DNA of 64,000 bases, taken from Ilumatobacter sp. (GTDB taxonomy: Bacteria; Actinomycetota; Acidimicrobiia; Acidimicrobiales; Ilumatobacteraceae). The position numbers and the translations under genes are program-made. The stretch spans positions 1 through 64,000 of the forward strand of contig NZ_JASJCS010000003.1 of the NCBI RefSeq assembly GCF_030065885.1, in the 5' to 3' direction. The first letter of the stretch is position 1. Every line of letters begins with the position of its first letter. Positions 16,479 to 43,519 of this stretch are shown here, piece after piece. The notes beneath the pieces are model-generated. The model ran no database searches, was not told where the DNA came from, and worked only from the letters and a program-made list of their open reading frames with translations.

Positions 16479-17132
16479 ATGAAGGGCGACATCATCGTTC
16501 TCGAAGAGCACCACAAGCGGGCAGCGCACCTCATCGTGCCCAACATCGTGGACGCGATCCGGGCCAAGGCGGGGCGATACACGATCACGGTCGCCGGCGA
16601 GTCGGGGAGCGGGAAGTCGGAGACGGGCAAGGCGATCGCCGACGAGCTCGCCGCGCACGACATCGCCGCGGTCCTGCTCGGGCAGGACGACTACTTCGTG
16701 CTCCCGCCGAAGTCCAACGACGCCAAGCGCCGCGAGGACGACAGCTGGCTCGGCCCCCACGTCGAAGTGCACCTCGACGTCCTCGAACGGAACCTGATCG
16801 ACGCCATCGACGGCGCCGACGAGATCGAGAAGCCGCTGATCGACTACGACGCGAACTCCGTCGAGGCCGAGACGATCGACCTCCGCGGCATCGACGTGGT
16901 GGTCGCGGAGGGCACGTACACCTCGCTGCTCAAGCACGTCGACACCAAGGTGTTCATCGCCCGCAACCGGCTGGACACCCTCGAGCACCGCCAGAAGCGG
17001 AACCGGGGCGACGAGGTCGGCGACCCGTTCATCGAGAACGTGTTGAAGATCGAGCACAAGATCATCGCCGGCCATCGCCAGCTCGCCGACTTCGTGATCA
17101 CCCGCGACTACGACGTGATCGACGTCCGATGA
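16479..17132 (+). CDS. Uridine kinase / phosphoribulokinase-like P-loop kinase
   Basis: A 217-residue kinase. It has the P-loop GESGSGKSETGKAI at about residues 38-51, a Walker-B-like VVVAEGTY, and LGQDDYFVLPP, the acceptor-binding strand of the uridine kinase fold. The region DTLEHRQKRNRGDE is a lid-type Arg cluster. It is not a standard Udk because the nucleoside-binding residues are not recognisable. The stop overlaps the start of the GH13 gene (ATGA), so the kinase probably phosphorylates a product or acceptor of that enzyme. Its exact substrate cannot be read from sequence. Confidence 0.8.
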   Translation: MKGDIIVLEEHHKRAAHLIVPNIVDAIRAKAGRYTITVAGESGSGKSETGKAIADELAAHDIAAVLLGQDDYFVLPPKSNDAKRREDDSWLGPHVEVHLDVLERNLIDAIDGADEIEKPLIDYDANSVEAETIDLRGIDVVVAEGTYTSLLKHVDTKVFIARNRLDTLEHRQKRNRGDEVGDPFIENVLKIEHKIIAGHRQLADFVITRDYDVIDVR

Positions 17133-20919: not shown

Positions 20920-23145
<2,226 letters not shown>

Positions 23146-23165: not shown

Positions 23166-24356
<1,191 letters not shown>

Positions 24357-26194: not shown

Positions 26195-26851
26195 TCAGGT
26201 GGGGCGGCGGGCGTCGCGCCAGCGGTGCAACACCTCGATCACCGACTGCAGGTGGTCGCGCATCGCAGCAGCTGCGGCGTGCTCGTCTCCGGCGACCACC
26301 GCTTCGACGATCGATGCGTGCTGCCCGAGCGACTCGCCGGGGCGCCCCGGCATCAGCGCGAGTCGATACTGATGATGTGCAGCGCGGTTGCGCAGGTTCG
26401 CGACGAGCTGACTCGCGATCGTGTGCCCACTCATCTCCCGCAGGCGGCGGTGGAGCAGGGCGTTGAGCTCGGAGTAGTCGCCGTCGCGATCCTCGGCGAC
26501 CGCGGCGCGCATGTCGTCGACGATGCCGCGTAGCTCATCGCGCTCGTCGCTGGTGGCGTGATGCGCGGCCTGCGCTGCGATCAAGCCTTCGAGCGCGGCC
26601 CGGGCCTCGGTGATCTGGATCGCCTCCTCGATCGAGATCCGACGGACCGTTGCGCCCCGGTTCGCCTCCCGTTCGACCAGCCCCTCCGACGTCAGCTCGA
26701 CGAGGGCCGACCGCACGGCGGCCCGCCCGCACCGGTACAGCTCGGCCAGTGGGACCTCGAGCAGCCGGTCGCCCGGCTCGAAGCGACCGGTGAGGATGTC
26801 CTGCCGGAGCTCGTCGGTCACGGAGCCTGTGGCCATGTCACGAGAAGTCAT
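26195..26851 (-). CDS. GntR-family regulator, FCD domain
   Basis: A 218-residue transcription factor. The winged helix is DELRQDILTGRFEPGDRLLEVPLAELYRCGRAAVRSALVELTSEGLVEREANRGATVR. The FCD effector domain follows, with EARAALEGLIAA, the metal-binding-type LLHRRLREMSGH and QHASIVEAVVAGD. It ends the galD-ligI-gntR operon, overlapping the ligI stop by 14 nt. ATG 26836 is an alternative start. The likely targets are the two TGTYGACA-AGAT-TGTCGACA sites at 24361 and 28851. A pathway intermediate such as protocatechuate or 2-pyrone-4,6-dicarboxylate is the plausible inducer. Confidence 0.92.
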   Translation of the reverse strand: MTSRDMATGSVTDELRQDILTGRFEPGDRLLEVPLAELYRCGRAAVRSALVELTSEGLVEREANRGATVRRISIEEAIQITEARAALEGLIAAQAAHHATSDERDELRGIVDDMRAAVAEDRDGDYSELNALLHRRLREMSGHTIASQLVANLRNRAAHHQYRLALMPGRPGESLGQHASIVEAVVAGDEHAAAAAMRDHLQSVIEVLHRWRDARRPT

Positions 26852-27746
26852 ACAGCACCTGCGGGTTGTCGACCAGGATCCGATCCCTGCTGGCCTGATC
26901 GGGAGCGAACGCCGCGAGGAGGTCGAGCAGCCGGCCCTCGTCGGGCATGTCGACCAGGTTCGGGTGCGGCCAGTCGGTTCCCCAAAGCACACGATCCGGG
27001 GCGCACTCGACCAGGGCGCGCCCGAACGGCACCACGTCGTCGTACGGCGCGATGCGTCCTTCGGTCAGACGCTCGGCGCAGGAGACCTTCACCCAGCACC
27101 GCTCGTCGGACGCCAGCCGTTCGAGCAGGCGCTGGAACGGCTCCTGGTCGACGCCGTCGGCGGCGGGTACTCGCGCCATGTGGTCGATCACATAGGGCAC
27201 GGGCATCGCGTCGAGCAGCCCCGAGTACGTGCCGAAGTCCCTCGCGTCGAGGTGGAGCACCACGTGCCAGCGCAGCGCCGCGACGCGATGGACGAGGTCC
27301 CGGAACTCGTCGAGGTCCGGGGCGCCGCCGAGATGGGCCACGAAGTTGAAGCGGATGCCGCGGACCTGATGCTCGTGCAGCTCGGCGAGGTCGTCGTCGG
27401 TGAACGACGGGTCGATCATGGCGACGCCCGCGTAGCGGCCGGCGCCGCGCTCGATCGCATCGAGCATCGCCGAGTTGTCGGCACCGTGGCAGCTGGCCTG
27501 CACGAACACCGCTCGCTCCAATCCGAGCCGGCGCTGCAGGCGCTCGAAGTCGTCGATCCCGGAGTCGGGCGGCGTGTACGTCCGGGTCGGCGAGAAGGGG
27601 AACCGCTCGGCGGGGCCGAAGATGTGGCAGTGGGCGTCGCACGCGAGAGCCGGCGGGCGGACCGCCGCGGGCGGCGAGGCTTCGGCAATCGGCCCGGGCA
27701 CGGTCCGTTCGAGGGGGAAGTCGTGCGGCGGATTGCGAGGAGCCAC
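26838..27746 (-). CDS. ligI: 2-pyrone-4,6-dicarboxylate lactonase
   Basis: Amidohydrolase-2 enzyme opening 2-pyrone-4,6-dicarboxylate to 4-oxalomesaconate. The 302-residue protein has CDAHCHIFGPAERFPFSPTRTYTPPD, the typical LigI start. VQASCHGADN, GIRFNFVAHLG, VLHLDA, YVIDHMARVP, WVKVSCAERL and the catalytic Asp in LWGTDWPHPN follow. GTG 27746 lies 3 nt after the upstream tautomerase stop. The first 35 residues are a less conserved leader. Confidence 0.95.
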   Translation of the reverse strand: MAPRNPPHDFPLERTVPGPIAEASPPAAVRPPALACDAHCHIFGPAERFPFSPTRTYTPPDSGIDDFERLQRRLGLERAVFVQASCHGADNSAMLDAIERGAGRYAGVAMIDPSFTDDDLAELHEHQVRGIRFNFVAHLGGAPDLDEFRDLVHRVAALRWHVVLHLDARDFGTYSGLLDAMPVPYVIDHMARVPAADGVDQEPFQRLLERLASDERCWVKVSCAERLTEGRIAPYDDVVPFGRALVECAPDRVLWGTDWPHPNLVDMPDEGRLLDLLAAFAPDQASRDRILVDNPQVLYDFS

Positions 27747-27749
27747 CGC

Positions 27750-28832
27750 TCAACGCTCCGTGTCGACCCGCGGGAACACCGTGCCGTCCATCAGCTTGCG
27801 GGCGGTGCGGATGATCCCGGCTCGCGAGACCTGGACGCCGCCGTCGGCCAGCGCGTCGACCTCGACGACGGCGTCGAAACAGCCGGTCGGATGCTCGAGC
27901 CGCACGACGTCGCCCCCGGGCGCGGTCGCGCAGGCGTGGGCGGGTGAGCCCTCGAGGAGGGCCGCCGTCGCGACCGACACCGCGCCGAGCACGCCGATCG
28001 CGTCGTGGCATCGATGGGGGATGAACGTGCGGGTCGAGAGATGGCCGCCGGCGCTCGGCGGCGAGACGAGCGTCAGCTTGGGCACGGTGGTCTCGCGCAC
28101 GTCGCCGAGACCCATCAGCTCGCCGGCCTTCAGCCGGATCGCCTCCAGCGCAGCGCGGAGGTCGGCGTCCTGTTCGAGCTCGGCGCACGTCTCGTCGCCC
28201 GACACGCCGAGCGAGTCGGCGCGCAGGACCGCGACGGGCATCCCGTTGTCGATCAGCGTGCACGCGGTGCCCTCGACCGTGTCGACGACGTTGCCGGTCG
28301 GCAGGAGCGCTCCCGTGCTCCCACCGGCGAGCCCCTCGAAGTCGAGGTGGATCGCGGCGGCCGTGCCCGGCACGCCGGAGATCGCGGTCGCGCCGCCGTA
28401 GACCGGCGCGCCGTCGAGCACGGCGAAGCGAGCGGTTGCGATCGAGTCGGTGTTCAGCATCCTGATCCGGACCGTGCACTCGCCGTGCTCGGGGCCCGTG
28501 AGCAGGCCGCGTTCGAGCGCGAACGGGCCCACGCCGGCCAGGACGTTGCCGCAGTTCTGGCGGTCGGACACGACGTCGTCGGCGACGCCGACCTGCAGGA
28601 AGAGGTAGTCGACGTCGGCGGCGTCGTCGCTCGCCGACGAGACGATGGCGACCTTGGAGGTGAGCGGGTGCGCCCCACCGATGCCGTCGATCTGACGGGC
28701 GTCGGGGGAGCCCATGACCCGCCGGAGGAGCGAGTCGCGAGCGTCGGGATCCCTCGGCAGGTCGTCGCGAAGGAAGTAGGCGCCCTTGGACGAGCCGCCA
28801 CGGAGGATCATGCACGGGATGCCGTCGCTCAC
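27750..28832 (-). CDS. galD: 4-oxalomesaconate tautomerase, PrpF family (GalD/LigU type)
   Basis: Isomerises keto and enol or cis/trans forms of 4-oxalomesaconate so LigJ can act. The PrpF/diaminopimelate-epimerase fold is shown by IPCMILRGGSSKGAYF, IDGIGGAHPLTSKVAIV (active Lys) and SDRQNCGNVLAGVGPFA (active Cys). Later come RTFIPHRCHDAIGVLGAVSVATA and VRLEHPTG. The track gives a TTG start at 28859 that falls inside the operator. GTG 28832 starts VSDGIPCMILRGG, as in the family. No clear ribosome site is visible at either. First gene of galD-ligI-gntR. Confidence 0.92.
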   Translation of the reverse strand: MSDGIPCMILRGGSSKGAYFLRDDLPRDPDARDSLLRRVMGSPDARQIDGIGGAHPLTSKVAIVSSASDDAADVDYLFLQVGVADDVVSDRQNCGNVLAGVGPFALERGLLTGPEHGECTVRIRMLNTDSIATARFAVLDGAPVYGGATAISGVPGTAAAIHLDFEGLAGGSTGALLPTGNVVDTVEGTACTLIDNGMPVAVLRADSLGVSGDETCAELEQDADLRAALEAIRLKAGELMGLGDVRETTVPKLTLVSPPSAGGHLSTRTFIPHRCHDAIGVLGAVSVATAALLEGSPAHACATAPGGDVVRLEHPTGCFDAVVEVDALADGGVQVSRAGIIRTARKLMDGTVFPRVDTER

Positions 28833-29864: not shown

Positions 29865-31781
29865 ATGACCGAGCTCGCCACCACGCCCACCACCGCGACC
29901 CATCCGCTCGACCCGTTGTCGGCGGACGAGATCACCGCCGCTATGGCCGTGTTGCGCGATGGTCGGGAGCTGCCGCCTCGGCTCCGTATCACGTCGATCG
30001 CCCTGGAGGAGCCGGCGAAGTCGATCGTCAGAGCCTTCAGGTCCGGCGACCCGATCGAGCGGGTCGCCCGCATCGTCTGCTACGACCGTGACACCCGGAC
30101 GACAGCGGTTGCGCTGGTCTCGATCACGAACGGAGCGGTCACGTCCTGGGAGGAGATCGCCGGCGTGCAGCCGCACCTCATGCTCGAGGAGTTCTTCATG
30201 CTCGAGGACATCCTCAAGGCCGACGAGCGCTACGTCGCCGCGCTCGCCACACGAGGCGTCACCGATCTCGACAAGGTCCAGGCCGACCCGTGGCCGGCCG
30301 GCAACTTCGGGAGCGACGGCGAGTGGCAGGGCCGTCGTGTCTGTCGGGCCGTCAGCTACGTCCGCGATCGACCCGACGACAACGGCTACGCACACCCGAT
30401 CGAGAACTTCGTCGCGATCGTCGACTTCGACGCCGGCGAGGTGCTCGAGCTGATCGAGGGCGACATCGTGCCGGTGCCCGAGCCGCACGGCCGCTACGAC
30501 GTCGAGGCGGCGACCGAGGGCGGTGGGTCGCTGCGCACACCGGCGCCGCTCGACATCACGCAACCCGACGGGCCGGGCTTCACGCTCGACGGCCAGCTGC
30601 TGACGTGGGAGCGGTGGTCGATGCGAGTCTCGGTCGCCCCGATCGAGGGCCTCGTCCTCCACCAGATCACCTGGCACGACGACGACGGCCCGCGCCCGAT
30701 CCTCTACCGCGCCGCGCTGGGCGACATGGTCGTCCCGTACGGGTCGACGGCGACCAACCACTGGTGGAAGAACGCGTTCGACGCCGGCGAGATCGGGCTC
30801 GGGCAGCTGCTCAACAGCCTCGAGCTCGGCTGCGACTGCCTCGGTGAGATCCGCTACCTCGACAGCGTCTCGGTCGACCAGGAGGGCCAACCGTTCGCGC
30901 AGCAGAACACGGTGTGCATCCACGAGGAGGACTTCGGGATGCTCTGGAAGCACTGGGACTTCGCCAGCGACTCCACCGAGGTCCGCCGGTCTCGCCGGCT
31001 GGTGGTGAGCTCGATCGCCACGGTCGGCAACTACGAGTACGCCTTCTACTGGCACTTCTACCTCGACGGGAACATCGAACTGCTGATCAAGATGACCGGC
31101 ATCGTGCAGACCCAGGCGTTGGCAGACGGCGAGGAGCCGGTCGGCGCCACCCGCATCGGCCCGAACCTCGCCGCGCCCCATCACCAGCACATGTTCTGCG
31201 TCCGGCTCGACGTCGACGTCGACGGCGGGCCGAACACCGTCAGCGAGCTCGACGTCGTACCGGTCGAGGGCGACCACCCTCATGCGTTCGACACCGTCAC
31301 GACCACGCTCACGACCGAGCAGCAGGCCCAGCGGATCTCCGACGCCGGGGCCAGCCGGACGTGGCTGATCGAGAACCACGGCAAGCTGAACGCCCACGGA
31401 CAACCGGTCGCGTACAGACTGATGCCCGGGTACTCGCCGACGATGCTGGCGCAACCGGGCGCCGCGATCCGAGAGCGTGCCACGTTCGCCACGCAGAACC
31501 TGTGGGTCACCCCCTTCGACCCCGACGAACGTCATCCGGCCGGCGACTTCCCGGCGCGGCACCCCGGCGGCGACGGGTTGCCGAGGTGGACGGCAGCCGA
31601 CCGCTCGATCGAGGACACCGACATCGTGGTGTGGCACACGTTCGGCGCCACCCACATCGTGCGGCCCGAGGACTACCCGGTGATGCCGGTCGAGATGCTG
31701 GGCTTCATGCTGAAGCCGAACGGCTTCTTCGACCGCAACCCGGCCCTCGACCTCGCACCGAGCCCGAAGCACTGCGACTGA
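29865..31781 (+). CDS. Copper-containing primary amine oxidase
   Basis: Oxidatively deaminates primary amines such as tyramine or phenethylamine to the aldehyde, ammonia and H2O2. The 638-residue protein has the topaquinone site Tyr390 in TVGNYEYAFYW, the catalytic base Asp306 in FDAGEIG, copper ligands in HHQHMFCVRLD and the third His in WHTFGATHIVRPEDYPVMP. Positions agree with Arthrobacter-type enzymes. No signal peptide is present. GGGGGAC precedes ATG 29865. With the hpa cluster 5 kb away it would supply 4-hydroxyphenylacetaldehyde from tyramine. Confidence 0.95.
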   Translation: MTELATTPTTATHPLDPLSADEITAAMAVLRDGRELPPRLRITSIALEEPAKSIVRAFRSGDPIERVARIVCYDRDTRTTAVALVSITNGAVTSWEEIAGVQPHLMLEEFFMLEDILKADERYVAALATRGVTDLDKVQADPWPAGNFGSDGEWQGRRVCRAVSYVRDRPDDNGYAHPIENFVAIVDFDAGEVLELIEGDIVPVPEPHGRYDVEAATEGGGSLRTPAPLDITQPDGPGFTLDGQLLTWERWSMRVSVAPIEGLVLHQITWHDDDGPRPILYRAALGDMVVPYGSTATNHWWKNAFDAGEIGLGQLLNSLELGCDCLGEIRYLDSVSVDQEGQPFAQQNTVCIHEEDFGMLWKHWDFASDSTEVRRSRRLVVSSIATVGNYEYAFYWHFYLDGNIELLIKMTGIVQTQALADGEEPVGATRIGPNLAAPHHQHMFCVRLDVDVDGGPNTVSELDVVPVEGDHPHAFDTVTTTLTTEQQAQRISDAGASRTWLIENHGKLNAHGQPVAYRLMPGYSPTMLAQPGAAIRERATFATQNLWVTPFDPDERHPAGDFPARHPGGDGLPRWTAADRSIEDTDIVVWHTFGATHIVRPEDYPVMPVEMLGFMLKPNGFFDRNPALDLAPSPKHCD

Positions 31782-31829: not shown

Positions 31830-33926
31830 ATGAAGCTGTTCTCGCACAGGAAGCGCCCGGTGCACCTCGGGCCGTATCCGCTGGAGCGGCTGCCACGCCT
31901 CGACGATCCGACCGAGGAGCCCCGACACCTCGGCGGAACCCGACCCGTCGAGCAGCGGCCGGAGGGTCCGGACGGAGCGAGCCACGCATTCCGGCTCTAC
32001 CTCGACCTGTTCGATGCGCAGCGCTCGGGCGAGGTCGCCGAGCCGGCACCGATTCCGGACGACCCGGTCGAGCGAGCGCACAACCTGAAGGCCGGCCTCT
32101 ACTTCCTCGATGCCGACATGGTCGGCTGCGCGGTCGTCCCGGAGGACGCGTGGTCGAACCCCGAGGCTCGACGGCACGGCCACGCGGTCGTCGCGCTCGT
32201 CGCACACACCCGGACGGTCGGCCGCGGTCAACCCGGTGACGAGTGGATCGACGGCACCCGTCAGGTCAACGCCGATCTACGCGCAGCTGAGCTCGCCGTG
32301 CTCACCGCCGGCTACATCCGCCGCCTCGGATTCGACGCTGTCGCCCACACGCCGTCGGCGACCGACCTCGACCTGGAGCGTGTCGCACTCCAGTGCGGCC
32401 TGATCGAGTCGGTCGGCGGCGCACTGAAGGCGCCGTACCTGCGTGGCGGCTTCGCGCTGTCGGTCGTGTCGACCGAGATGGAGATCGCCGCCGATGCTCC
32501 GCTCGCACCCCGTGGTCTGGTCGGCTCGCTGCGGACGACCCGCTCGATCGGTTGGCTGCTGGGCCGGCGCGGCACCCGCGCCGGCATCGGCCGCCTGAAC
32601 GGCGATCACCGGCCGCTGCACATGGGCCGCCAGCCGATGGAGCGGATCAAGCGCGTCGACGAGCCCACCACGCTGATCATCGCCGACGAGGTGCAGCGGG
32701 TACCCGTACGGGCCGGCGGGTTCCCGCGCGCCGCCCACGGTGACCTGGGCCCGAAGTTCCAGAACGACGTGAAGGTCTTCGCGTACAAGACGCCCCAGGC
32801 GCAGACCTACATCCAGCAGATCGACGCGATGGTGCCGCACCAGGACGGACCGGTTGCCGACGCGGTCGCCGCGGGCACCAAGGATCCCGACCGGAACGCC
32901 GACGCGGTCAAGGCCCTGGCGTACCACCTCGGCGGCGACATGGTCGGCGTCTGCGAGGTGCCCGAGTACGTCTGGTACTCCCACAACGGGAAGGGCGAGG
33001 TCATCGAGCCCCGGCACCGCAACGCCATCGTGATCCTGCTCGACCAGGGGTACGAGACGATGGAGGGCGCCAGTGGCGACGACTGGGTGTCGGGCGCACA
33101 GTCGATGCGGGCGTACATGCGCGGTGCCCAGATCGCCGGCATCATCGCCGAGCACCTCCGATCGCTCGGCCACGGCGCCCGCAGTCACACCAATCGCGAC
33201 TCCGAGGTGCTGCACATCCCGCTCGTGCTCGAGGCCGGGCTCGGCGAGATGAGCCGGATCGGCGAGCTCGTGCTCAATCCGTTCGTCGGGCCGCGGTTCA
33301 AATCGGTCGTGGTCACCACCGACCTGCCGCTCACGCCCGACCGGAAGATCGACTTCGGGTTGCAGGACTTCTGCCAGAAGTGCACGAAGTGCGCCCGCGA
33401 GTGTCCGTGCGGGGCGATCCCGTTCGGCGACAAGATCATGTTCAACGGCTACGAGACGTGGAAGCCCGACGTCGAGAAGTGCACCAAGTACCGGCTCGGC
33501 AACCTGAAGGGGTCGGCGTGCGGGCGCTGCATGAAGACCTGCCCGTTCAACACCGAGGGCGTGCTGTCGGAGCGCTCCTTCCTCTGGGCGGCGATCAAGC
33601 TGCCGTTCGCCCGTTCGTGGATCGCCCGCCTCGACGACCAGGTCGGCAACGGCTCGATCAACCCGGTCAAGAAGTGGTGGTGGGACCTCCAGTGGAAGGA
33701 CGGCCGCACGATCGTCCCGGAGAAGGGCACCAATGCCCGTGGTCTCGACCCCGACGGCGGCCGGATCGCCGACAAGCAGCGGATCGCGCTCTACGAGCCC
33801 GACATGCTGCCGCCGGGCGACAACCAGGGTGTCCCGGTGAAGCTCGACCGGAAGGAGGCCATCCGCCGCGGCGAGCGGGCCGAGACGCCAGCGAGTGCGA
33901 GGACCCGCCTCGCCCGGCGAGGCTGA
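31830..33926 (+). CDS. Aerobic (NpRdhA-like) corrinoid reductive dehalogenase
   Basis: A 698-residue cytoplasmic protein with no Tat signal. The C-terminal half has the two [4Fe-4S] motifs: Cys515 in CQKCTKCARECPCGAI (CX2CX2CX3C) and, later, C...CGRCMKTCPF. The corrinoid domain precedes them (YHLGGDMVGVCEVPEYVWYSHNG, IAEHLRSLGHGARSHTN, VLEAGLGEMSRIGELV). Residues about 80-240 repeat this pattern in degenerate form (LYFLDADMVGCAVVPEDAW, AGYIRRLGFDAVAHT), as in catabolic RdhA enzymes. There is no C-terminal reductase extension as in BhbA. It follows the amine oxidase by 48 nt. Dehalogenation of ortho-halogenated phenolic acids or amines is the likely role. Confidence 0.88.
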   Translation: MKLFSHRKRPVHLGPYPLERLPRLDDPTEEPRHLGGTRPVEQRPEGPDGASHAFRLYLDLFDAQRSGEVAEPAPIPDDPVERAHNLKAGLYFLDADMVGCAVVPEDAWSNPEARRHGHAVVALVAHTRTVGRGQPGDEWIDGTRQVNADLRAAELAVLTAGYIRRLGFDAVAHTPSATDLDLERVALQCGLIESVGGALKAPYLRGGFALSVVSTEMEIAADAPLAPRGLVGSLRTTRSIGWLLGRRGTRAGIGRLNGDHRPLHMGRQPMERIKRVDEPTTLIIADEVQRVPVRAGGFPRAAHGDLGPKFQNDVKVFAYKTPQAQTYIQQIDAMVPHQDGPVADAVAAGTKDPDRNADAVKALAYHLGGDMVGVCEVPEYVWYSHNGKGEVIEPRHRNAIVILLDQGYETMEGASGDDWVSGAQSMRAYMRGAQIAGIIAEHLRSLGHGARSHTNRDSEVLHIPLVLEAGLGEMSRIGELVLNPFVGPRFKSVVVTTDLPLTPDRKIDFGLQDFCQKCTKCARECPCGAIPFGDKIMFNGYETWKPDVEKCTKYRLGNLKGSACGRCMKTCPFNTEGVLSERSFLWAAIKLPFARSWIARLDDQVGNGSINPVKKWWWDLQWKDGRTIVPEKGTNARGLDPDGGRIADKQRIALYEPDMLPPGDNQGVPVKLDRKEAIRRGERAETPASARTRLARRG

Positions 33927-34033: not shown

Positions 34034-35323
34034 TCACCCGTCCCAGGTCACGTCGAGGCGGCTCGGTCCTCGGAACGTGATGTTGGGGAACCGCGTGACC
34101 TGCTGATCGTGCACGAGGCGCATGGAGGGGAGCTGCTGCGTGAGCGTCTCCATGATCGCGTTCGCCTCGAGGCGGGCGAACATCGCACCGAGGCAGTAGT
34201 GGTTGCCCTTCCCGAACGAGATGTTCTGGCGAGCGTTCGACCGCTCGAGGTCGTAGCGCTCGGGGTCCTCGAACACCGCCGGATCGTGGTTCGCCGCACC
34301 GAGGTTGAGGAAGACCTGCGTGCCGGCCGGGATGTCGACCCCGCCGAGGGTCGTGTCCTCCGTGGTCACCCGGCGCCAGCCGACCTGCGGTGAGTTCCAC
34401 CGGATGACCTCCTCCATCGCGAGCGGCACGACGGCGGGGTCGGCGCACATCGCGTCCCACACCTCGCGCCGGGGGAGCAGCGTCAGCAGCGCGTTGCCGA
34501 GGTAGAGCGTGACCGGCTCGTGGCCCGCGAAGGACAGGCCGTAGAGGATCGACTCGACCTCGCGATAGGTGAGGTCGTCGGGGTTCGCCTCGTGGTCGGC
34601 CAGCAGCTCGGAGGCGAGGTCGTCGCCCGGTTGGTCGCGCTTGCGGGCCGTGAACTCGCGCACGTACTTCCAGTAGGCCACCATCTTGGTGGCGATCTCG
34701 ACCTGCTCGTCGGGCGTCGGCCGACCCCACGAGAACGCCAGCCGATCGCCGCACCACTCCTTGAGCTGGGCGTCGTCCGACTCGGGGAACCCCATGAAGC
34801 GGAACACGACCTCACCCGGCAACGGGTTGGCGACGGCGGCCACGAAGTCGGCGGGTGGTCCGCCGGCGATCATCTCGTCGATCAGCTCACCGGCCCTGCG
34901 CCGGATGTACGGCTCGAGCACCTTGTTGCGGCGGTTGGAGAAGCCTTTCTTCGTGTACTGGCGGATGCGCCCGTGGTCGGGTTCCTGGCGGTTCGACATC
35001 ACCGCGACGGGGTCGAACTCCGGGTCGGCGAGGATGGCCGCGGCCTCGTCGCAGAGCGGGAAGACCGGGTCCTGCACGTTCTCGGACGAGTAGACGTCGG
35101 GGTTCATGAACACCTCGGTGACGTCCGCCATCCGGGAGACGACGACGTAGCCGAGGTCCTCGGCGAACACCACGGGCGTCTCCTCGCGCAGGCGTGCAGC
35201 GGTGGGGTACGGGTCGGCGACGTACTCGGCCGAGAGCGGCCGGAACGACGAGTGGTCGACCGGGCAGCCGGGCGGCGGCCCACTCGGACCGGTTCGGATC
35301 TGGTGGTACGCGGCCTCGCTCAT
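34034..35323 (-). CDS. Cytochrome P450
   Basis: A 429-residue soluble bacterial P450. The haem loop is FGKGNHYCLGAMFAR (Cys ligand near residue 367). The K-helix is EEVIR. The I-helix reads LSFAGHEPVTL, where the usual acidic-alcohol pair AGxD/ET is altered to AGHEPVT. The N-terminal Pro-rich segment and Asp/Pro pattern fit class I P450s that need a separate ferredoxin, and none is encoded nearby. It converges on the dehalogenase gene and lies beside aromatic genes. Aromatic hydroxylation or O-demethylation is a guess. AGGGGGCACG precedes ATG 35323. Confidence 0.93.
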   Translation of the reverse strand: MSEAAYHQIRTGPSGPPPGCPVDHSSFRPLSAEYVADPYPTAARLREETPVVFAEDLGYVVVSRMADVTEVFMNPDVYSSENVQDPVFPLCDEAAAILADPEFDPVAVMSNRQEPDHGRIRQYTKKGFSNRRNKVLEPYIRRRAGELIDEMIAGGPPADFVAAVANPLPGEVVFRFMGFPESDDAQLKEWCGDRLAFSWGRPTPDEQVEIATKMVAYWKYVREFTARKRDQPGDDLASELLADHEANPDDLTYREVESILYGLSFAGHEPVTLYLGNALLTLLPRREVWDAMCADPAVVPLAMEEVIRWNSPQVGWRRVTTEDTTLGGVDIPAGTQVFLNLGAANHDPAVFEDPERYDLERSNARQNISFGKGNHYCLGAMFARLEANAIMETLTQQLPSMRLVHDQQVTRFPNITFRGPSRLDVTWDG

Positions 35324-35416
35324 CGTGCCCCCTGGATGGGAACACTACGGTGCGGGCGGCCCCACTGTCCCGAGCGGGCGAACTCGCTGCTCGTCAGCGG
35401 GCGAACCCGCTGCTTG

Positions 35417-36046
35417 TCAGCGGGCGCCTTCGAGCGGGCTCGGTTCGGGGACCTGCCAGTCGGCGGGCATCTTCGAGAAGTCGAAGAACGGGGCCTCGTC
35501 GCCGGCCTCGACCGCGTTGGCCACCTGGTCGTAGAAGCCCTTGCCGGTCTCCTCGGCGAACGTGATGCTGACGTCCTCGCCGGTCTCGGCGTTGGGCCGC
35601 TCGACGTACTCGGGGAAGTTGGTCTCGTCGGCGGCGCCCTCGGTGTACCCGCGGGCGAACATCTGCTTGAGCACGCCGAACCCGTCGTTGCGCACGAGCA
35701 CCTCGCCGCGCGGGCTGCCGCCGAGGCGCTTCATGTGGGCGATGAAGGCGTCGAGGTCGTAGGTGTCGTAGGCGACGTGCTGCACCGAGTGGTCGCCGTG
35801 CGCCTCGACGAACGCCGTCACCTGGCTCTTCTTGGCGCGGTCGATCCCCTCGATGAGGGCGACGCCGAACTCGCCGTAGTCGATGCACCAGATCTTCATG
35901 CTGTCGTTCGGGTCGTCGGGCCGCACGTCGTCGATGCGGTTGATCAGCCGGCCGCCCTCGACCTCGGTGTGGAACCAGGTCCACTTCTCGATCGTGCCCG
36001 TGGCGCAGGCGTAGCTGATGTGATCGACCCGCTTGAGGTGCGACAT
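35417..36046 (-). CDS. VOC-family protein resembling the catalytic half of HPPD
   Basis: A 209-residue single vicinal-oxygen-chelate unit. It starts MSHLKRVDHISYAC (His ligand), continues with VEAHGDHSVQHVAYDTYDLDAFIAHM (second His) and LKQMFARGYTEG, and has FPEYVERP, where the Glu aligns with the third Fe ligand of 4-hydroxyphenylpyruvate dioxygenase. GKGFYDQVANAVEAGD resembles the HPPD C-terminal helix. Full HPPD is about 350-380 residues, so the N-terminal half is missing while the metal triad looks complete. The track start at 36148 is replaced by ATG 36046, which has GGAG upstream. Confidence 0.75.
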   Translation of the reverse strand: MSHLKRVDHISYACATGTIEKWTWFHTEVEGGRLINRIDDVRPDDPNDSMKIWCIDYGEFGVALIEGIDRAKKSQVTAFVEAHGDHSVQHVAYDTYDLDAFIAHMKRLGGSPRGEVLVRNDGFGVLKQMFARGYTEGAADETNFPEYVERPNAETGEDVSITFAEETGKGFYDQVANAVEAGDEAPFFDFSKMPADWQVPEPSPLEGAR

Positions 36047-36688: not shown

Positions 36689-37495
36689 TCAGGTGAAAGC
36701 CAGCTCGAAGCTGCCGAGGTCGCCGTAGTCGAAGCGGAACTCGTCGCCGGGACGGATGTCGATCGGGCGCGTGAACGAGCCGGCCAGGATCGTGTGGCCG
36801 GCCTCGAGCGTCAGCCCCTGCTCGGCGTAACGGCGCGCGAGCCACACGATGCCGGCGGCCGGATGGTCGAGCACGCCGGCCGCAAGGCCCGTCTCCTCGA
36901 CGATGCCGGCGCGATACGCGAGCGCGCCGACCCATCGCAGGTCGATGTCGCGCGGCCCGACCCGGCGGCCGCCGCAGACGATGCCGGCGTCGGCGGCGTT
37001 GTCGGCGATCGTGTCGACGACCGTTCGGGTGCGACCGGTCTCCGGGTCGCGCCGGAACGAGCGAGCGGCGATCAACTCGACGGCGGGCACCACGTGGTCG
37101 GTCGCGTCGAGTACGTCGTCGATCGTCAGGTCGGCGCCGGCGAGATCGGTCGCCAGCACGAACGCCAGCTCGATCTCCAGCTTGGGGTCGCAGAACCGTG
37201 CGGCTTCGAGCGTGCTCCCCGGCTCGAACACCATGTCGCGGGTGAGGAACCCCGAGTCGGGCGTGGTGATGTTCATCGCTGCCTGCATGGCGCGCGATGT
37301 GAGCCCGATCTTGTGGCCGACGAGCTGCTCGCCGCGGGCGAGCTTCCGGTCGAGCCATGCGGCCTGCACGCGGTAGGCGTCGTCCATCGTCATGCCGGGA
37401 TGGACCGACGTGGTCTGGCGGATCTGCGTCGCGGTGCTCTCGGCCTCGTCGAGCAGTGCCGCCTCGGCCTGCACCTCGACGTCACTCAAGCTCAT
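36689..37495 (-). CDS. hpaH: 2-oxo-hept-4-ene-1,7-dioate hydratase
   Basis: Hydratase of the homoprotocatechuate meta pathway, 268 residues against 267 in E. coli HpaH. It belongs to the FAH-like hydratase/decarboxylase fold. It shows GHKIGLTSRAMQAAMNITTPDSGFLTRDMVF (metal and substrate loop), CDPKLEIELAFVL with the two metal-binding Glu residues, and the C-terminal HTILAGSFTRPIDIRPGDEFRFDYGDLGSF. ATG 37495 lies inside hpaR and overlaps it by 14 nt. The track start 37528 is further into hpaR. Confidence 0.94.
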   Translation of the reverse strand: MSLSDVEVQAEAALLDEAESTATQIRQTTSVHPGMTMDDAYRVQAAWLDRKLARGEQLVGHKIGLTSRAMQAAMNITTPDSGFLTRDMVFEPGSTLEAARFCDPKLEIELAFVLATDLAGADLTIDDVLDATDHVVPAVELIAARSFRRDPETGRTRTVVDTIADNAADAGIVCGGRRVGPRDIDLRWVGALAYRAGIVEETGLAAGVLDHPAAGIVWLARRYAEQGLTLEAGHTILAGSFTRPIDIRPGDEFRFDYGDLGSFELAFT

Positions 37496-37973
37496 CGCCG
37501 GGCTCCTCGTCGACGACCTCGTGAGCATCGGCGCCGAGGTCGAGGGTCGCGAGGTCGTAGAGCTCGTCGAGCAGCCGGCTCAGGCGCTCGGCGCCGAACG
37601 CCTCCTCGATCGCGGCGTAGCGCTGCTCCGACTCAGGGGCGATGAGGCGCACCTGTGCGAGACCGTGCTCGCTCAGCGCGATCAGCGACCGGCGCTGGTC
37701 GGTGGTGTCGACGGTGCGGACGATCAGATTGCGATCCTCGAGGTTGGTCAGGATGCGCGACAGGCTCGGCGGGAGGAGGAACGTGCGCTCGGCGAGGTCG
37801 CTCACGTCGACGGCGGCCGCCGTGGCCGTCAGCGCCCGGAGCACCCGCCACTGCTGCTCGGTCAGGCCGTGTTCTGCCAGCAGCGGCCGGAACAGCCGCA
37901 TCGCGGCCTCCCGCGCCTGGAGGAGCGCCATCGGCAGCGACGCTGCGAACGGACGCATGGCCGGCGTGCTCAT
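37482..37973 (-). CDS. hpaR: MarR-family regulator, HpaR type
   Basis: A 163-residue winged-helix repressor. LPMALLQAREAAMRLFRPLLAEHGLTEQQWRVLRALTATA, the HTH LPPSLSRILTNLEDRNLIVRT and the wing DQRRSLIALSEHG match HpaR, which represses homoprotocatechuate genes and is released by the substrate. Its ATG overlaps the hpaG stop by 4 nt. The likely target is the AACATGTT palindrome in the hpaG-hpaF divergent gap. Confidence 0.92.
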   Translation of the reverse strand: MSTPAMRPFAASLPMALLQAREAAMRLFRPLLAEHGLTEQQWRVLRALTATAAAVDVSDLAERTFLLPPSLSRILTNLEDRNLIVRTVDTTDQRRSLIALSEHGLAQVRLIAPESEQRYAAIEEAFGAERLSRLLDELYDLATLDLGADAHEVVDEEPGDELE

Positions 37974-38875
37974 TGTGGCTCCGGTGCGGCGAACGAGGCC
38001 GCGAGCGTGCCCGGCGCGAACTCGTCGGCGACCGTGTTGCGGAGCGTGCCGATCTCGGGAACCGACACCTCGACCACGTCACCGGGCTGCAACCACACCG
38101 GCGGGTCGAACCGGGCCCCGGCGCCGGTCGGCGTGCCGGTGAAGATCAGGTCGCCGGGGCGGAGCTCGGTGAACGTCGAGAGGTAGTGGATCTGGTACTC
38201 GATCGAGTACTTCATCGTGGCCGGCGTGTCGTCCTGGCGGAGCGCGCCGTTGACCCGCGTCGTCAGGTGCAGCTGTTCGAGGTCGCCGAACTCGTCGATC
38301 GGGACGAGCCACGGGCCGATCGCGCCGCTCGCCGTCCAGTTCTTGCCCTGGGTGACGTTGAACTTCGCGTGGCGAACCCAGTCGCGGATCGTCCCTTCGT
38401 TGCCGAGCGTCAGCGCGGCGATGTGATCGCGGGCGTCGGCGACCTCGATGCGCCGGCCGCTACGGCCGATCACCACGACGATCTCTCCCTCGTAGTCGAG
38501 CTGCGGGCTCTCGGGTGGCCGGATCAAGCTGCGCCCGTGGCCGGTGAACGAGTCGGGGAAGCGGACGAAGACCGACGGGTACGCAGCATCGCCGGCGTCG
38601 GTGTACTCGGCGGCGCGACCCCCGTAGTTGACGCCGATGCAGAGGACCTTGCCCGGCCAGGGGAGCGGACGCTCGAACGTGATCCCGTCGAGTGCGTGGT
38701 CGGCGGGCTCGCGCTCGAACGTGCGAGCCTCGGTGAGTCGACCGGCGCCGACGAGTGCTCCGAGGTCGGGCACGCCGGGCATCCGGCGCCGGAGGTCGAC
38801 CACGCCGGTGCCGCGGGCATCGACGTTGCCGAAGCTCGTCTCGCCCTCGACGGTGTAGGAGAGGAGTCGGGTCAT
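37970..38875 (-). CDS. hpaG: Fumarylacetoacetate-hydrolase-family protein (HpaG-like isomerase/decarboxylase)
   Basis: A 301-residue FAH-fold enzyme. It shows KVLCIGVNYGGRAAEYTD, PSVFVRFPDSFTGHG, LDYEGEIVVVIGR (metal-binding Glu pair), NVTQGKNWTASGAIGPW and LRPGDLIFTGTPTGAGARFDPPVWLQPGD. In the hpa context it should decarboxylate 5-oxopent-3-ene-1,2,5-tricarboxylate. E. coli HpaG is a fused two-domain protein, whereas this is one domain. It starts the minus-strand unit hpaG-hpaR-hpaH, divergent from hpaF. Confidence 0.88.
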   Translation of the reverse strand: MTRLLSYTVEGETSFGNVDARGTGVVDLRRRMPGVPDLGALVGAGRLTEARTFEREPADHALDGITFERPLPWPGKVLCIGVNYGGRAAEYTDAGDAAYPSVFVRFPDSFTGHGRSLIRPPESPQLDYEGEIVVVIGRSGRRIEVADARDHIAALTLGNEGTIRDWVRHAKFNVTQGKNWTASGAIGPWLVPIDEFGDLEQLHLTTRVNGALRQDDTPATMKYSIEYQIHYLSTFTELRPGDLIFTGTPTGAGARFDPPVWLQPGDVVEVSVPEIGTLRNTVADEFAPGTLAASFAAPEPQ

Positions 38876-38946: not shown

Positions 38947-39327
38947 ATGCCGCACATCACGATCGAACACTCGGCCAACGTCTCGGACCACCACGACGTC
39001 GACGCGCTCGTCGCCGCCGTCCACGCGGCAGCGCTCGCCAACGGCCTCCCCGAGGTCGCCGGCCTGCGCACGCGGGCCGCCGAGCGCCGTCACTACCGTG
39101 TCGCCACCGGTGATCCCGGCTTCGCGTTCGTCGCGATCCACTGCCGGATCGGGCCGGGCCGCGACGATGTGGCGAAGCGCTCGTTCGTCGCCGACGTGCT
39201 CGACGCCGCCGAGCAGGCGGTCACCGGCACACCGCTCGCGATCGCCTGGTCGATCGAGCTCACCGAGATCGACCCCGAGCTCCGCATCAATCGCAACCAC
39301 GTCCGCACCGCCATGGAGGACATCTGA
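38947..39327 (+). CDS. hpaF: 5-carboxymethyl-2-hydroxymuconate delta-isomerase
   Basis: A 126-residue member of the 4-oxalocrotonate-tautomerase superfamily. Pro1, the catalytic base after Met removal, is in MPHITIEHSANV. The rest (HYRVATGDPGFAFVAIHCRIGPGRD, RNHVRTAMEDI) matches HpaF/CHMI rather than short 4-OT. It opens the plus-strand hpa unit and its stop overlaps the hpaE start by one base (TGATG). Confidence 0.93.
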   Translation: MPHITIEHSANVSDHHDVDALVAAVHAAALANGLPEVAGLRTRAAERRHYRVATGDPGFAFVAIHCRIGPGRDDVAKRSFVADVLDAAEQAVTGTPLAIAWSIELTEIDPELRINRNHVRTAMEDI

Positions 39328-40856
39328 TGGTCGCCGCCGGCTACACCTACGACGACAACCTCGCCGTCGCCGACGAGCATCTCGCCCGATTCGCCGCCGA
39401 GCCGCTGCCCCACCTGATCGCAGGCGAGGCCGTCCCGTCACCATCGGGCGAGACGTTCGAGAACACGTCGCCGATCGACGGCACCCGCCTCGGCGACGTC
39501 GCCGCCGGAGACGCCGCCGACGTCGATGCCGCCGCATGCGCCGCGGCCGAGGCGTTCGACGCATGGGGCAGCGCGCCGGGAACGGAACGCCGGCGCATCC
39601 TGCACCGCGTCGCCGACCTGATCGAGCATCGCGCCCACCAGATCGCCGTCACCGAGTGCGTCGACACCGGCCAGACCATGCGCTTCATGGCACAGGCCGC
39701 GCTCCGCGGCGCGCAGAACTTCCGCTTCTTCGCCGACCGGGCACCATCGGCCGCCGACGGCCTGTCGCTGCCGTCGCCCGACCACGTGAACTACACCACC
39801 CGCCATCCGATCGGTCCGGTCGGCGTGATCACGCCCTGGAACACGCCGTTCATGCTGTCGACGTGGAAGATCGCGCCGGCGCTCGCGGCCGGCTGCACGG
39901 TGGTCCACAAGCCGGCCGAGTGGAGCCCGCTGACCGCTCACCTGCTCGCCGAGATCGCACACGAGGCCGGGCTGCCGCCCGGCGTGCTCAACGTGGTGCA
40001 CGGCACGGGTGAGACCGCCGGCAAGAGCCTCACCGAGCACCCGGCCATCAAGGCGATCGCCTTCGTCGGCGAGTCCGCCACCGGGTCGCGCATCCAGGCT
40101 CAGGGTGCCCCGACGCTGAAGCGCGTGCACTTCGAGCTCGGCGGCAAGAACCCGGTGATCGTCTTCGACGACGCCGACCTCGAGCGTGCCGTCGACGCGG
40201 TCGTGTTCATGATCTACAGCCTCAACGGCGAGCGCTGCACCAGTTCGTCACGGCTGCTCGTCCAGGACTCGATCCACGACGAGGTCACGGCAAGGGTGGC
40301 CGAGAAGATGCGCCACGTGCCGGTCGGCCATCCGCTCGACCCCGGCGCTGTGATCGGGCCGCTGATCCACCCGCGCCACCACGAGAAGGTCCGCAGCTAC
40401 CTCGACGTCGCAGCCGACGACGGCGCGACGGTCGTCGAGGGCACCCCGTGGGACGACGCACCAGCGGGCGGCAACTGGATCGCTCCGGTGCTGTTCACCG
40501 GCGCCCGCTCGGACATGCGCATCGCGCAGGAGGAGATCTTCGGGCCCGTGCTGACGGCGATCCCGTTCGCCGACGAGGCCGACGCCGTGAAGATCGCCAA
40601 CGACGTCGACTACGGGCTCGCCGGCTACGTGTGGACCCGCGACGTCGGACGTGCGCACCGGGTCGCCCATGCCCTCGAGGCGGGCATGGTCTGGGTGAAC
40701 TCTCAGAACGTCCGCCACCTGCCGACCCCCTTCGGCGGCACGAAGGCGTCCGGCATCGGCCGCGACGGCGGCGACTGGAGCTTCGACTTCTACATGGAGA
40801 CCAAGAACATCAGCGTGGCGCTCGACACCCACGCCGTCCCCGAGCTCGGAGGCTGA
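39327..40856 (+). CDS. hpaE: 5-carboxymethyl-2-hydroxymuconate-semialdehyde dehydrogenase
   Basis: NAD-dependent aldehyde dehydrogenase, 509 residues. It has [48 protein letters not shown] (catalytic Glu) and [10 protein letters not shown] (catalytic Cys). The C-terminal [25 protein letters not shown] is typical of HpaE/BetB-like enzymes. It oxidises the ring-fission semialdehyde to the tricarboxylate acted on by HpaF and HpaG. It is coupled to hpaF, with 2 nt to the next dehydrogenase. Confidence 0.93.
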
Positions 40857-40858
40857 AC

Positions 40859-42286
40859 ATGCGTGACCAGATGCTCATCGATGGTGAGTGGCTCGATGGC
40901 ACCGACGGCGAACGCATCGCAGTGATCGACCCTGCCAGCGGCGACGAGATCACCACCGTCGCCGGCGGCACGCCCGCCGACGCGACCGCCGCCGTCGATG
41001 CCGCGGCGGCGGCACAGGGGCCGTGGGCGGCGGCTGCTCCCAGGGAGCGGGCCGAGGTCCTGCGATCGTGCTGGGTGACGCTGCTCGACCATGCCGACGA
41101 GCTGGCCGGGCTGATCACCCGCGAGCACGGCAAGCCGCTCGCCGACGCACGCGGCGAGATCGCGTACGCGGCCGAGTTCTTCCGCTGGAACAGCGAGGAG
41201 ACCGTCCGGATCCACGGCACGATCGGCACCGCGCCGGCCGGAACGAACAGGATCATCGTGCGCCACCCGCCGGTCGGCGTCGTCGTGATGGTGACGCCGT
41301 GGAACTTCCCCGCTGCGATGATCACCCGCAAGGTGGCGCCGGCGCTCGGCGCCGGCAACGCCGTCGTCATCAAGCCGCCCAAGGAGACGCCGCTCACGGC
41401 GCTCCGCGTCGCCGACCTGTTGCAGGAGGCCGGTGTTCCACCGGGTGTCGTCAACGTCGTGCCCACAGGGAACGCGGGCGCCTGGTTCGACGCGGCCACC
41501 GAGCACCGGGCAACCCGCATGGTCTCGTTCACCGGGTCGACCGAGGTCGGTCGGGTCCTGCTCCGGCGCTGCGCCGACCGCGTGCTCAAGGTGGCGATGG
41601 AGCTGGGCGGCAACGCGCCCTTCGTCGTGTTCGACGACGCCGACCTCGACGCGGCTGTCGAGGGCGCGATGGTCGCCAAGATGCGTCACTCCGCCGAGAC
41701 GTGCACCGCCGCCAACCGCTTCTTCGCGGAGGCCGGCATCGCGCCTGCGTTCACCGAAGCGCTCGCCGCCGCCATGGCCGACGTGAAGGTGGGGAACGGC
41801 TTCGAGGAGGGTGTCACGTGCGGCCCCATGATCAACGCGGCGGCGATCGAGTCGATCGGTGGCCTCGTCGATGCGGCGGTCGGCGCAGGGGCGACGGTGG
41901 CGACCGGCGGCGCCGCCATCGACGGCCCCGGCTTCTTCTACGAGCCGACCGTGCTGGCCGACGTCGCCTCGACCGCAGCGATCACCCGGGAGGAGATCTT
42001 CGGGCCCGTGGCGCCCGTCATCCCCTTCACCGACCACGATGCGATGATCGCCGACGCCAACGACACCGAGATGGGCCTCACGGCCTACGTCTACACGGCC
42101 GACCTGGCCAAGGGGCTCGCCACCGCGGAGCGGCTCGAGTCGGGCATGGTCGGTGTCAACCGTGGGGCCGTGTCGGATCCCGCTGCACCGTTCGGCGGGA
42201 TGAAGCAGTCCGGGCTCGGCCGCGAGGGCGCGAGCGAGGGCATCTACGAGTTCTGCGAGACTCAGTACATCGCCGCGAGCTGGTGA
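40859..42286 (+). CDS. gabD: NAD(P)-dependent succinate-semialdehyde dehydrogenase
   Basis: A 475-residue aldehyde dehydrogenase with the GabD signature. Motifs are REHGKPLADARGEIAYAAEFFRWNSEE (active-site entry), VTPWNFPAAMITRKVAPALGAGNAVVIKP, FTGSTEVGRVLL, MELGGNAPFVVFDDAD (Glu) and SAETCTAANRF (Cys). Succinic semialdehyde is the end product of the homoprotocatechuate pathway, so this gene closes the route to succinate. The aldolase HpaI that would make it is not in the window. The start is ATG 40859. The track gives an upstream shadow. Confidence 0.93.
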   Translation: MRDQMLIDGEWLDGTDGERIAVIDPASGDEITTVAGGTPADATAAVDAAAAAQGPWAAAAPRERAEVLRSCWVTLLDHADELAGLITREHGKPLADARGEIAYAAEFFRWNSEETVRIHGTIGTAPAGTNRIIVRHPPVGVVVMVTPWNFPAAMITRKVAPALGAGNAVVIKPPKETPLTALRVADLLQEAGVPPGVVNVVPTGNAGAWFDAATEHRATRMVSFTGSTEVGRVLLRRCADRVLKVAMELGGNAPFVVFDDADLDAAVEGAMVAKMRHSAETCTAANRFFAEAGIAPAFTEALAAAMADVKVGNGFEEGVTCGPMINAAAIESIGGLVDAAVGAGATVATGGAAIDGPGFFYEPTVLADVASTAAITREEIFGPVAPVIPFTDHDAMIADANDTEMGLTAYVYTADLAKGLATAERLESGMVGVNRGAVSDPAAPFGGMKQSGLGREGASEGIYEFCETQYIAASW

Positions 42287-42296
42287 TCGAGCGAGC

Positions 42297-42677
42297 ATGA
42301 GCCTCTACTACGTCCAGAAGTTCCTCTACGAGCTCAACCGCGACGAGGCGATCCAAGAGCACTACCGGGCCGACCGGCACGCCGTGCTGGCGCCGTACGA
42401 GCTGACCGAGGAGGAGGTCGATGCGTTGGTGCAGCCCGACATCGGGCGGCTGTTCCACTTCGGCGTCAACGGCCAGATCCTCATGCACTTCGCCGCGTTC
42501 CACCAGATCGCGTGGGCCGACTACCTCCAGCTGATGCGCGACGGCATCGCCGAGCACGGTCCGGTTCGTGAGGGTGTCTACGCGATGACCGGGTACGAAG
42601 GGGTGGACGCACACGCCGCGAGCCTCGGCCAGGAGTCGCACGCCGCCGATGGTGGCGGGAACGACGGGGAGGTCTGA
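42297..42677 (+). CDS. LigA-like small subunit of a second extradiol dioxygenase
   Basis: A 126-residue helical protein: MSLYYVQKFLYELNRDEAIQEHYRADRHAVLAPYELTEEEVDALVQPDIGRLFHFGVNGQILMHFAAFHQ. This is the LigA fold with the conserved Gly-Val-Asn-Gly loop of the alpha subunit of LigAB enzymes. A poorly conserved Gly/Asn tail follows. Its stop overlaps the catalytic subunit start (TGATG). In E. coli the homoprotocatechuate dioxygenase has no separate alpha subunit, so this pairing is unusual. Confidence 0.88.
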   Translation: MSLYYVQKFLYELNRDEAIQEHYRADRHAVLAPYELTEEEVDALVQPDIGRLFHFGVNGQILMHFAAFHQIAWADYLQLMRDGIAEHGPVREGVYAMTGYEGVDAHAASLGQESHAADGGGNDGEV

Positions 42678-43519
42678 TGGGGCTCGTGTACGCCGGCGTG
42701 TGCAGCCACGCGCCCGGGATCACCGGACGCGCCGACCAGGCCGACCCAGCGGTTCGCGACGCGTTCTACGCGGCGCTCGACGAGATGCGCGAGGCGATCG
42801 AGGCGAGCGGCGCCGACGCCGTCATCGTGATCGCAGCCGAGCACTTCGCCAACTTCTTCATGAACAACATGCCGAGCTTCGCGATCGGGATGGCCGACTT
42901 CTACGACGGCCCGATCGAGGACCCGGGGTGGCTCGGCATCGACCGCTTCCGTGCCCCCGGCGACCGTGACCTGTCGCAGCGGCTCATCGCCGAGGTGATG
43001 CAGACGGTCGACATCGCCTATGCGGAGGAATGGAAGTTCGACCACGGCATCGCCGTGCCGCTGCACTTCCTGACCCCGCGGTTCGACCTGCCCGTCGTCC
43101 CGGTCAACATCAACTGCCAGGGCCCGCCGCTCGCACCGCTCGGTCGCGCTTGGGCGCTGGGCGAGGCCCTCCGCCGCGCCGCCGACGCGGTGCCCGAGAA
43201 GATCGCGCTGGTCGGCACCGGCGGCATCTCGCACTGGCCGGCGACACCCGACTCCGGGAAGATCAACGAGGCCTGGGACCGCGACTTCCTCGGCCGCTGG
43301 TGCCGCAACGACCGCGACGCCCTGCTCGACTACGACGACCTCACCGTCTACGCCGACGCCGGCCAGGGCGGCTTCGAGATCAGGACGTTCATCGCCGTCA
43401 GCGCGGCGGCGGCTGGGGCGCCGGGCACGGTCCACTTCTGTGAGCCGATCCCGATCTTCGCGGTGAGCTGCACGGTGGCGAGCTACCAGCTCGAGGCGGC
43501 CGGCTCGACGCCGGGCTGA
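42677..43519 (+). CDS. LigB-like extradiol dioxygenase, probable homoprotocatechuate 2,3-dioxygenase
   Basis: A 280-residue class III extradiol dioxygenase. Metal-ligand regions are His in YAGVCSHAPGITG, His in VIAAEHFANFF, acid-base His in LVGTGGISHWP, and Glu in GGFEIRTF. Since it terminates a transcription unit with hpaF and hpaE, and hpaG and hpaH lie opposite, cleavage of 3,4-dihydroxyphenylacetate is the best inference. It is clearly distinct from LigB at 21869. Confidence 0.9.
   Translation: MGLVYAGVCSHAPGITGRADQADPAVRDAFYAALDEMREAIEASGADAVIVIAAEHFANFFMNNMPSFAIGMADFYDGPIEDPGWLGIDRFRAPGDRDLSQRLIAEVMQTVDIAYAEEWKFDHGIAVPLHFLTPRFDLPVVPVNINCQGPPLAPLGRAWALGEALRRAADAVPEKIALVGTGGISHWPATPDSGKINEAWDRDFLGRWCRNDRDALLDYDDLTVYADAGQGGFEIRTFIAVSAAAAGAPGTVHFCEPIPIFAVSCTVASYQLEAAGSTPG

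Follow-up and report, generated by a model that had tools for sequence, protein, structure and literature searches.

What does a corrinoid and iron-sulfur protein do when its gene lies among genes for the breakdown of phenolic acids? The question is raised by a locus of Ilumatobacter sp. within a stretch of 64,000 nucleotides (the window; contig NZ_JASJCS010000003.1, positions 1 to 64,000), in which an earlier, sequence-only reading had recognized an aerobic reductive dehalogenase (RdhA). That interpretation is largely right. RdhA is quite likely a soluble, probably oxygen-tolerant dehalogenase of the reductase-less NpRdhA type that feeds the catabolism of 4-hydroxyphenyl acids.

The rdhA gene (Table 1) starts with ATG, runs for 698 codons without an internal stop and has a GC content by codon position (0.70/0.48/0.91) of the coding type. 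Residues 1-695 of its product match NpRdhA (4ras/6zxu; phmmer, E 1e-207), with identity at 343 of 689 positions (50%) in a 49-sequence alignment. The protein also passes TIGR02486, the NCBIfam reductive dehalogenase (RDH) model (175.9 bits; cut-off 160.35). In a Pfam scan only the ferredoxin portion is recognized, and the Dehalogenase family PF13486 matches a second gene of the genome and not rdhA; rdhA would thus escape an annotation based on Pfam alone. As the sequence-only reading had stated, RdhA has neither a twin-arginine motif in its first 70 residues nor a membrane-like stretch (highest 19-residue hydropathy 1.16), and the Pfam scan finds no C-terminal phthalate-dioxygenase-reductase domain in an open reading frame that ends at 698 amino acids. 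The source genome contains one NpRdhA-type gene.

An AlphaFold2 model of RdhA (49 sequences; pLDDT 86, pTM 0.92) is closest to NpRdhA in Foldseek (TM 0.93-0.94), far ahead of PceA (approximately 0.33) and epoxyqueuosine reductase (approximately 0.2). An internal repeat relates residues 9-222 to residues 260-503 (29% identity, E 5e-23), giving a vestigial corrinoid domain (approximately 9-222), a functional corrinoid domain (approximately 260-503) and two [4Fe-4S] sites (515-571); such a vestigial duplication has been described for catabolic RdhAs (PMC10463259). The NpRdhA residues S422, M423, Y426, N452, K488 and R552, whose roles are known (PMC7565698), align with S425, M426, Y429, N455, K491 and R555. 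Among them S425 and the halide-site residues Y429, K491 and R555, a trio singled out for checking in the sequence-only reading, are invariant in all 49 aligned sequences, as are the cluster cysteines C515, C518, C521, C525, C551, C564, C567 and C571. RdhA is thus supported as a soluble NpRdhA-type dehalogenase without a fused reductase by its sequence, its predicted fold and the conservation of its catalytic residues.

Respiratory RDHs of the PceA type share the core of a corrinoid and two [4Fe-4S] clusters (85-88 bits to two solved chains) but have a Tat signal, a membrane anchor partner and no duplicated domain. The absence of a Tat signal or membrane segment and the presence of the duplicated domain rule out this identity for RdhA. 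T7RdhA and A6RdhA of Acidimicrobiaceae are related corrinoid iron-sulfur proteins from the same bacterial group, reported as belonging to the PceA branch (PMC10008544), a description that sets them apart from RdhA.

Scanning a single genome for each species yielded 80 rdhA loci, about 30 of them in acidimicrobial metagenome-assembled genomes (MAGs) at 72-82% identity. In a tree built by a quick method, RdhA falls in a supported group of eight inside a supported clade of 24. Distribution is patchy, since a close homologue occurs in 5 of 395 genomes sampled across the class and a full-length one in 3 of 61 genomes (its own and near relatives). The class-wide search added only two new loci, both without an amine oxidase or pobA. 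The gene adds a member to an established family, within a clade that is poorly described; the catabolic RdhAs characterized in the cited literature are proteobacterial, whereas this one belongs to a coherent, rare clade of Acidimicrobiia.

Table 1. Genes of the window discussed in the text.
Feature	Coordinates	Strand	Evidence
PobA, 4-hydroxybenzoate 3-monooxygenase	23166..24332	-	TIGR02360 590 > 539
LigAB, protocatechuate 4,5-dioxygenase subunits	21869..23145	-	NF009903; TIGR02792
LigI-like lactone hydrolase + 4-oxalomesaconate tautomerase	26838..28832	-	PF04909; NF033377 475.6 > 440
Copper (TPQ) amine oxidase, phenylethylamine-oxidase type	29865..31781	+	PF01179 E 1e-145; NF008559 845.8 > 651
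rdhA, catabolic (NpRdhA-type) reductive dehalogenase, 698 aa	31830..33926	+	phmmer, NCBIfam, residues, model
Cytochrome P450	34034..35323	-	PF00067; PDB P450 matches
VOC-fold protein, weakly like 4-hydroxyphenylpyruvate dioxygenase	35417..36046	-	TIGR01263 38.7 bits, far under cut-off; PDB HPPD E 3e-5
HpaH, 2-oxo-hept-4-ene-1,7-dioate hydratase	36689..37495	-	TIGR02312 above cut-off
HpaG-like FAA-hydrolase family protein (decarboxylase/isomerase)	37970..38875	-	PF01557; TIGR02303 E 3e-44, under cut-off
5-carboxymethyl-2-hydroxymuconate isomerase-like	38947..39327	+	NF011605 E 8e-12, under cut-off
HpaE, 5-carboxymethyl-2-hydroxymuconate semialdehyde dehydrogenase	39327..40856	+	TIGR02299 791 > 638
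Aldehyde dehydrogenase, nearest succinate-semialdehyde dehydrogenase	40859..42286	+	TIGR01780 521 bits, under cut-off
Class III extradiol dioxygenase, small alpha + LigB-type beta subunit	42297..43519	+	beta matches class III dioxygenases; L037 order conserved

The position given in the sequence-only reading, between an amine oxidase gene and the hpa cluster and 3 kb from the lig genes, is confirmed: the lig-side genes (tautomerase, lactone hydrolase, PobA and LigAB) lie 3 to 12 kb from rdhA, the nearest end at 3.0 kb. The P450 and VOC genes between rdhA and the hpa cluster went unmentioned there. The amine oxidase gene is upstream on the same strand with a gap of 48 bp, and the two genes may be co-transcribed. 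Its product best matches Arthrobacter-type phenylethylamine oxidase in the PDB (E 2.6e-163), contains the NYEY cofactor motif and the histidine motifs, and is the only copper amine oxidase of a genome whose relatives mostly have none (10 carriers among 61 related genomes). The P450 gene lies on the other side, 108 bp beyond the rdhA stop on the opposite strand; its best PDB match, 5gwe, is presumably the alkylphenol-oxidising CreJ. The dioxygenase of the hpa cluster is probably the homoprotocatechuate ring-cleaving enzyme.

Genes in other rdhA loci were called by a codon-model script, with tblastn as a check. Within the clade, pobA lies 31 bp from rdhA in L014, 60 bp in L013, 197 bp in L027 and 5 kb in L012, and in the proteobacterial L063 it is 67 bp upstream; PobA of L014, L013, L027 and L063 all score over the 4-hydroxybenzoate hydroxylase cut-off. 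Four clade loci thus carry pobA within 10 kb of rdhA against 0.02-0.1 expected, the lower figure reflecting a background of ten true PobA genes across 210 Mb of related genomes. The Poisson probability is 7e-9, or 3e-6 if each genome had one pobA, figures that overstate independence because the loci are kin, but parsimony requires five changes on the tree. The hpa cluster also adjoins rdhA in L037 (individual genes 51-78% identical). This context ties the acidimicrobial RdhA clade to aromatic-acid catabolism, and ortho-halogenated 4-hydroxyphenyl acids fit it as substrates. Most clade relatives have other neighbours, many of their loci lacking phenolic-acid genes nearby; thus, pobA, hpa and the amine oxidase are not fixed partners of rdhA.

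Sulfatase genes adjoin or lie near rdhA in seven loci (L010, L013, L027, L034, L038, L058 and L063), which suggests sulfated halophenols as upstream substrates, and P450 genes do so in the window, L012, L032 and L053. Sulfatase coordinates include L010:7827-9359, L013:13332-14894, L027:8290-9846 and L063:12194-13597; the L013 sulfatase gene directly abuts pobA. The recurring pobA, sulfatases, P450s and amine oxidases are testable hints on the natural organohalides met by these enzymes. In the literature searched, no paper joins a reductive dehalogenase with a sulfatase and bromophenol, or with Ilumatobacter, which is no proof of novelty.

The reaction can be proposed by analogy with NpRdhA. 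The C-terminal half of RdhA would hold cob(I)alamin, which would attack a halogen positioned ortho to the phenolic hydroxyl held by S425, K491 and R555; Y429 would donate a proton, and halide would be released. An unlinked donor, for example a ferredoxin, would supply two electrons, which would pass along the two [4Fe-4S] clusters. RdhA most probably acts on 3-halo-4-hydroxyphenylacetate and 3-halo-4-hydroxybenzoate, and the adjacent phenylethylamine-type oxidase may supply substrate from halotyramines via the aldehyde. Dehalogenation would yield 4-hydroxyphenylacetate or 4-hydroxybenzoate, which would be channelled into the hpa and pobA-lig pathways encoded on either side.

Characterized relatives offer precedents for this scheme. 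JtRdhA (Jhaorihella thermophila) and BhbA (Comamonas 7D-2), of the same catabolic family and reported as specific for ortho-halophenols (PMC10463259), carry a fused phthalate-dioxygenase-reductase domain that RdhA lacks. JtRdhA turns over 3,5-dibromo-4-hydroxybenzoate and 3-bromo-4-hydroxyphenylacetate, its best substrates, about equally, and allows E. coli W to grow on the latter; the bromoxynil pathway of BhbA ends in 4-carboxy-2-hydroxymuconate-6-semialdehyde, the product of protocatechuate 4,5-cleavage (PMC10463259). JtRdhA is inactive on chlorinated analogues (PMC10463259); NpRdhA is active on some (PMC7565698). NpRdhA itself (Nitratireductor pacificus pht-3B; PDB 4RAS, 6ZXU; PMC7565698) resembles RdhA in length (approximately 700 versus 698 residues), in its vestigial and functional corrinoid domains without a reductase fusion, in the catalytic residues and cluster cysteines, and in having an amine oxidase in its locus. 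The two differ in half of their residues, in the pocket and in their flanks, the hpa and pobA-lig genes of the window standing in place of an adjacent ferredoxin reductase and ferredoxins.

Several steps lack a visible gene. The source genome, approximately 91% complete, yielded no HpaB-type 4-hydroxyphenylacetate hydroxylase, so the 4-hydroxyphenylacetate branch misses a step; the P450, the VOC protein (34034-36046, - strand) or another oxygenase may supply the ring hydroxylation. With the Nitratireductor reductase and ferredoxins as queries, no ferredoxin or ferredoxin reductase was found near rdhA in the window, and the best match in the genome to the partner reductase of NpRdhA is only 25% identical. 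Such linked genes, present in L074 and L077, are reported for some members of the reductase-less subgroup only and are not strictly defining. Neither CobS nor CobN was found in the same approximately 91% complete assembly; thus, the corrinoid may need to be imported.

The strongest alternative, which we regard as rather unlikely, is that RdhA belongs to the same family but naturally acts on another ortho-halophenol, the hpa, lig and amine oxidase genes being merely nearby in a catabolic island. Candidates would be halophenols released when sulfate esters are cleaved, methoxylated halo-aromatics that a P450 opens, or larger bisphenol-like compounds. The recurring sulfatases and P450s agree with it, as do the many clade loci without phenolic-acid genes and the acceptance of tetrabromobisphenol A by JtRdhA (PMC10463259). 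So does pocket position 290 of NpRdhA, where glycine occurs in all 24 acidimicrobial clade sequences and in none of the other aligned sequences, and would open the hydrophobic wall beside the substrate. In all, NpRdhA F290, P311, A419 and K307 are replaced by G297, A318, G422 and V314, changes that count against a role in 4-hydroxyphenyl-acid catabolism; at the pocket entrance, K307 of NpRdhA forms a salt bridge to non-productively bound benzoate. Against this alternative, pobA adjacency far exceeds chance and both downstream pathways are present in the window. The fixed change from phenylalanine to glycine is also a handle for a simple substrate-scope test.

The amine oxidase raises a further issue. 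NpRdhA in N. pacificus and its homologue in N. soli likewise have a copper amine oxidase next to them, together with an aldehyde dehydrogenase, the amine oxidases being 32-33% identical to that of the window; with just two lineages, this pairing is a hint. Along with this amine oxidase and aldehyde dehydrogenase, the segments L074:12123-17497 and L077:12159-17350 (the NpRdhA locus) encode two ferredoxins and a ferredoxin-reductase-like protein. Every other acidimicrobial rdhA locus examined lacks a copper amine oxidase. Bromotyramine, also named in the sequence-only reading, is accordingly a plausible starting compound, given the adjacent oxidase and its distant Nitratireductor counterpart. 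An actinobacterial halotyramine operon, running from amine oxidase to RdhA to the 4-hydroxyphenylacetate pathway and with the same pairing arising independently in Nitratireductor, is possible though doubtful. If it exists, halogenated phenylethylamines would be a natural substrate source for catabolic RdhAs, NpRdhA included. The literature searched contains no mention of the amine oxidase of the NpRdhA locus and no paper joining a reductive dehalogenase with tyramine and an amine oxidase, an absence that does not prove novelty.

It is improbable that RdhA dehalogenates 3-halotyramine itself before the amine oxidase acts, as part of a dedicated operon. The short same-strand gap and the single copy of each gene in the source genome favor such an order, but assays of characterized relatives used acids and phenols rather than amines (PMC10463259), and the amine oxidase is missing from the other acidimicrobial loci. 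Least probable is a corrinoid enzyme without dehalogenase function, such as one resembling epoxyqueuosine reductase, a possibility that the sequence-only reading had raised together with a loss of catalytic residues: RdhA has the class III cobalamin fold in common with QueG and matches TIGR00276 weakly, but a score of just 23.4 bits (cut-off 200) and the low TM value rule out that identity, the catalytic residues are intact and the duplicated domain is typical of catabolic RdhAs.

The second RDH-like gene of the source genome encodes 388 amino acids (G000 contig C181 8485-9285 region; L008:1474-2640, - strand). Its product is 31-34% identical over the core, passes TIGR02486 and PF13486, and lacks the duplicated domain; comparable matches occur in G003, G008 and G051. 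It may belong with T7RdhA and A6RdhA (PMC10008544) and be nearer to those proteins than RdhA is. The MAG of L014 carries a second full-length NpRdhA-type gene (G350:C18:21953-24025, L096), 45-47% identical to RdhA. Elsewhere in the window, a sucrose-phosphorylase-like gene unrelated to rdhA lies at 17129-18685 (+ strand; TIGR03852 under cut-off).
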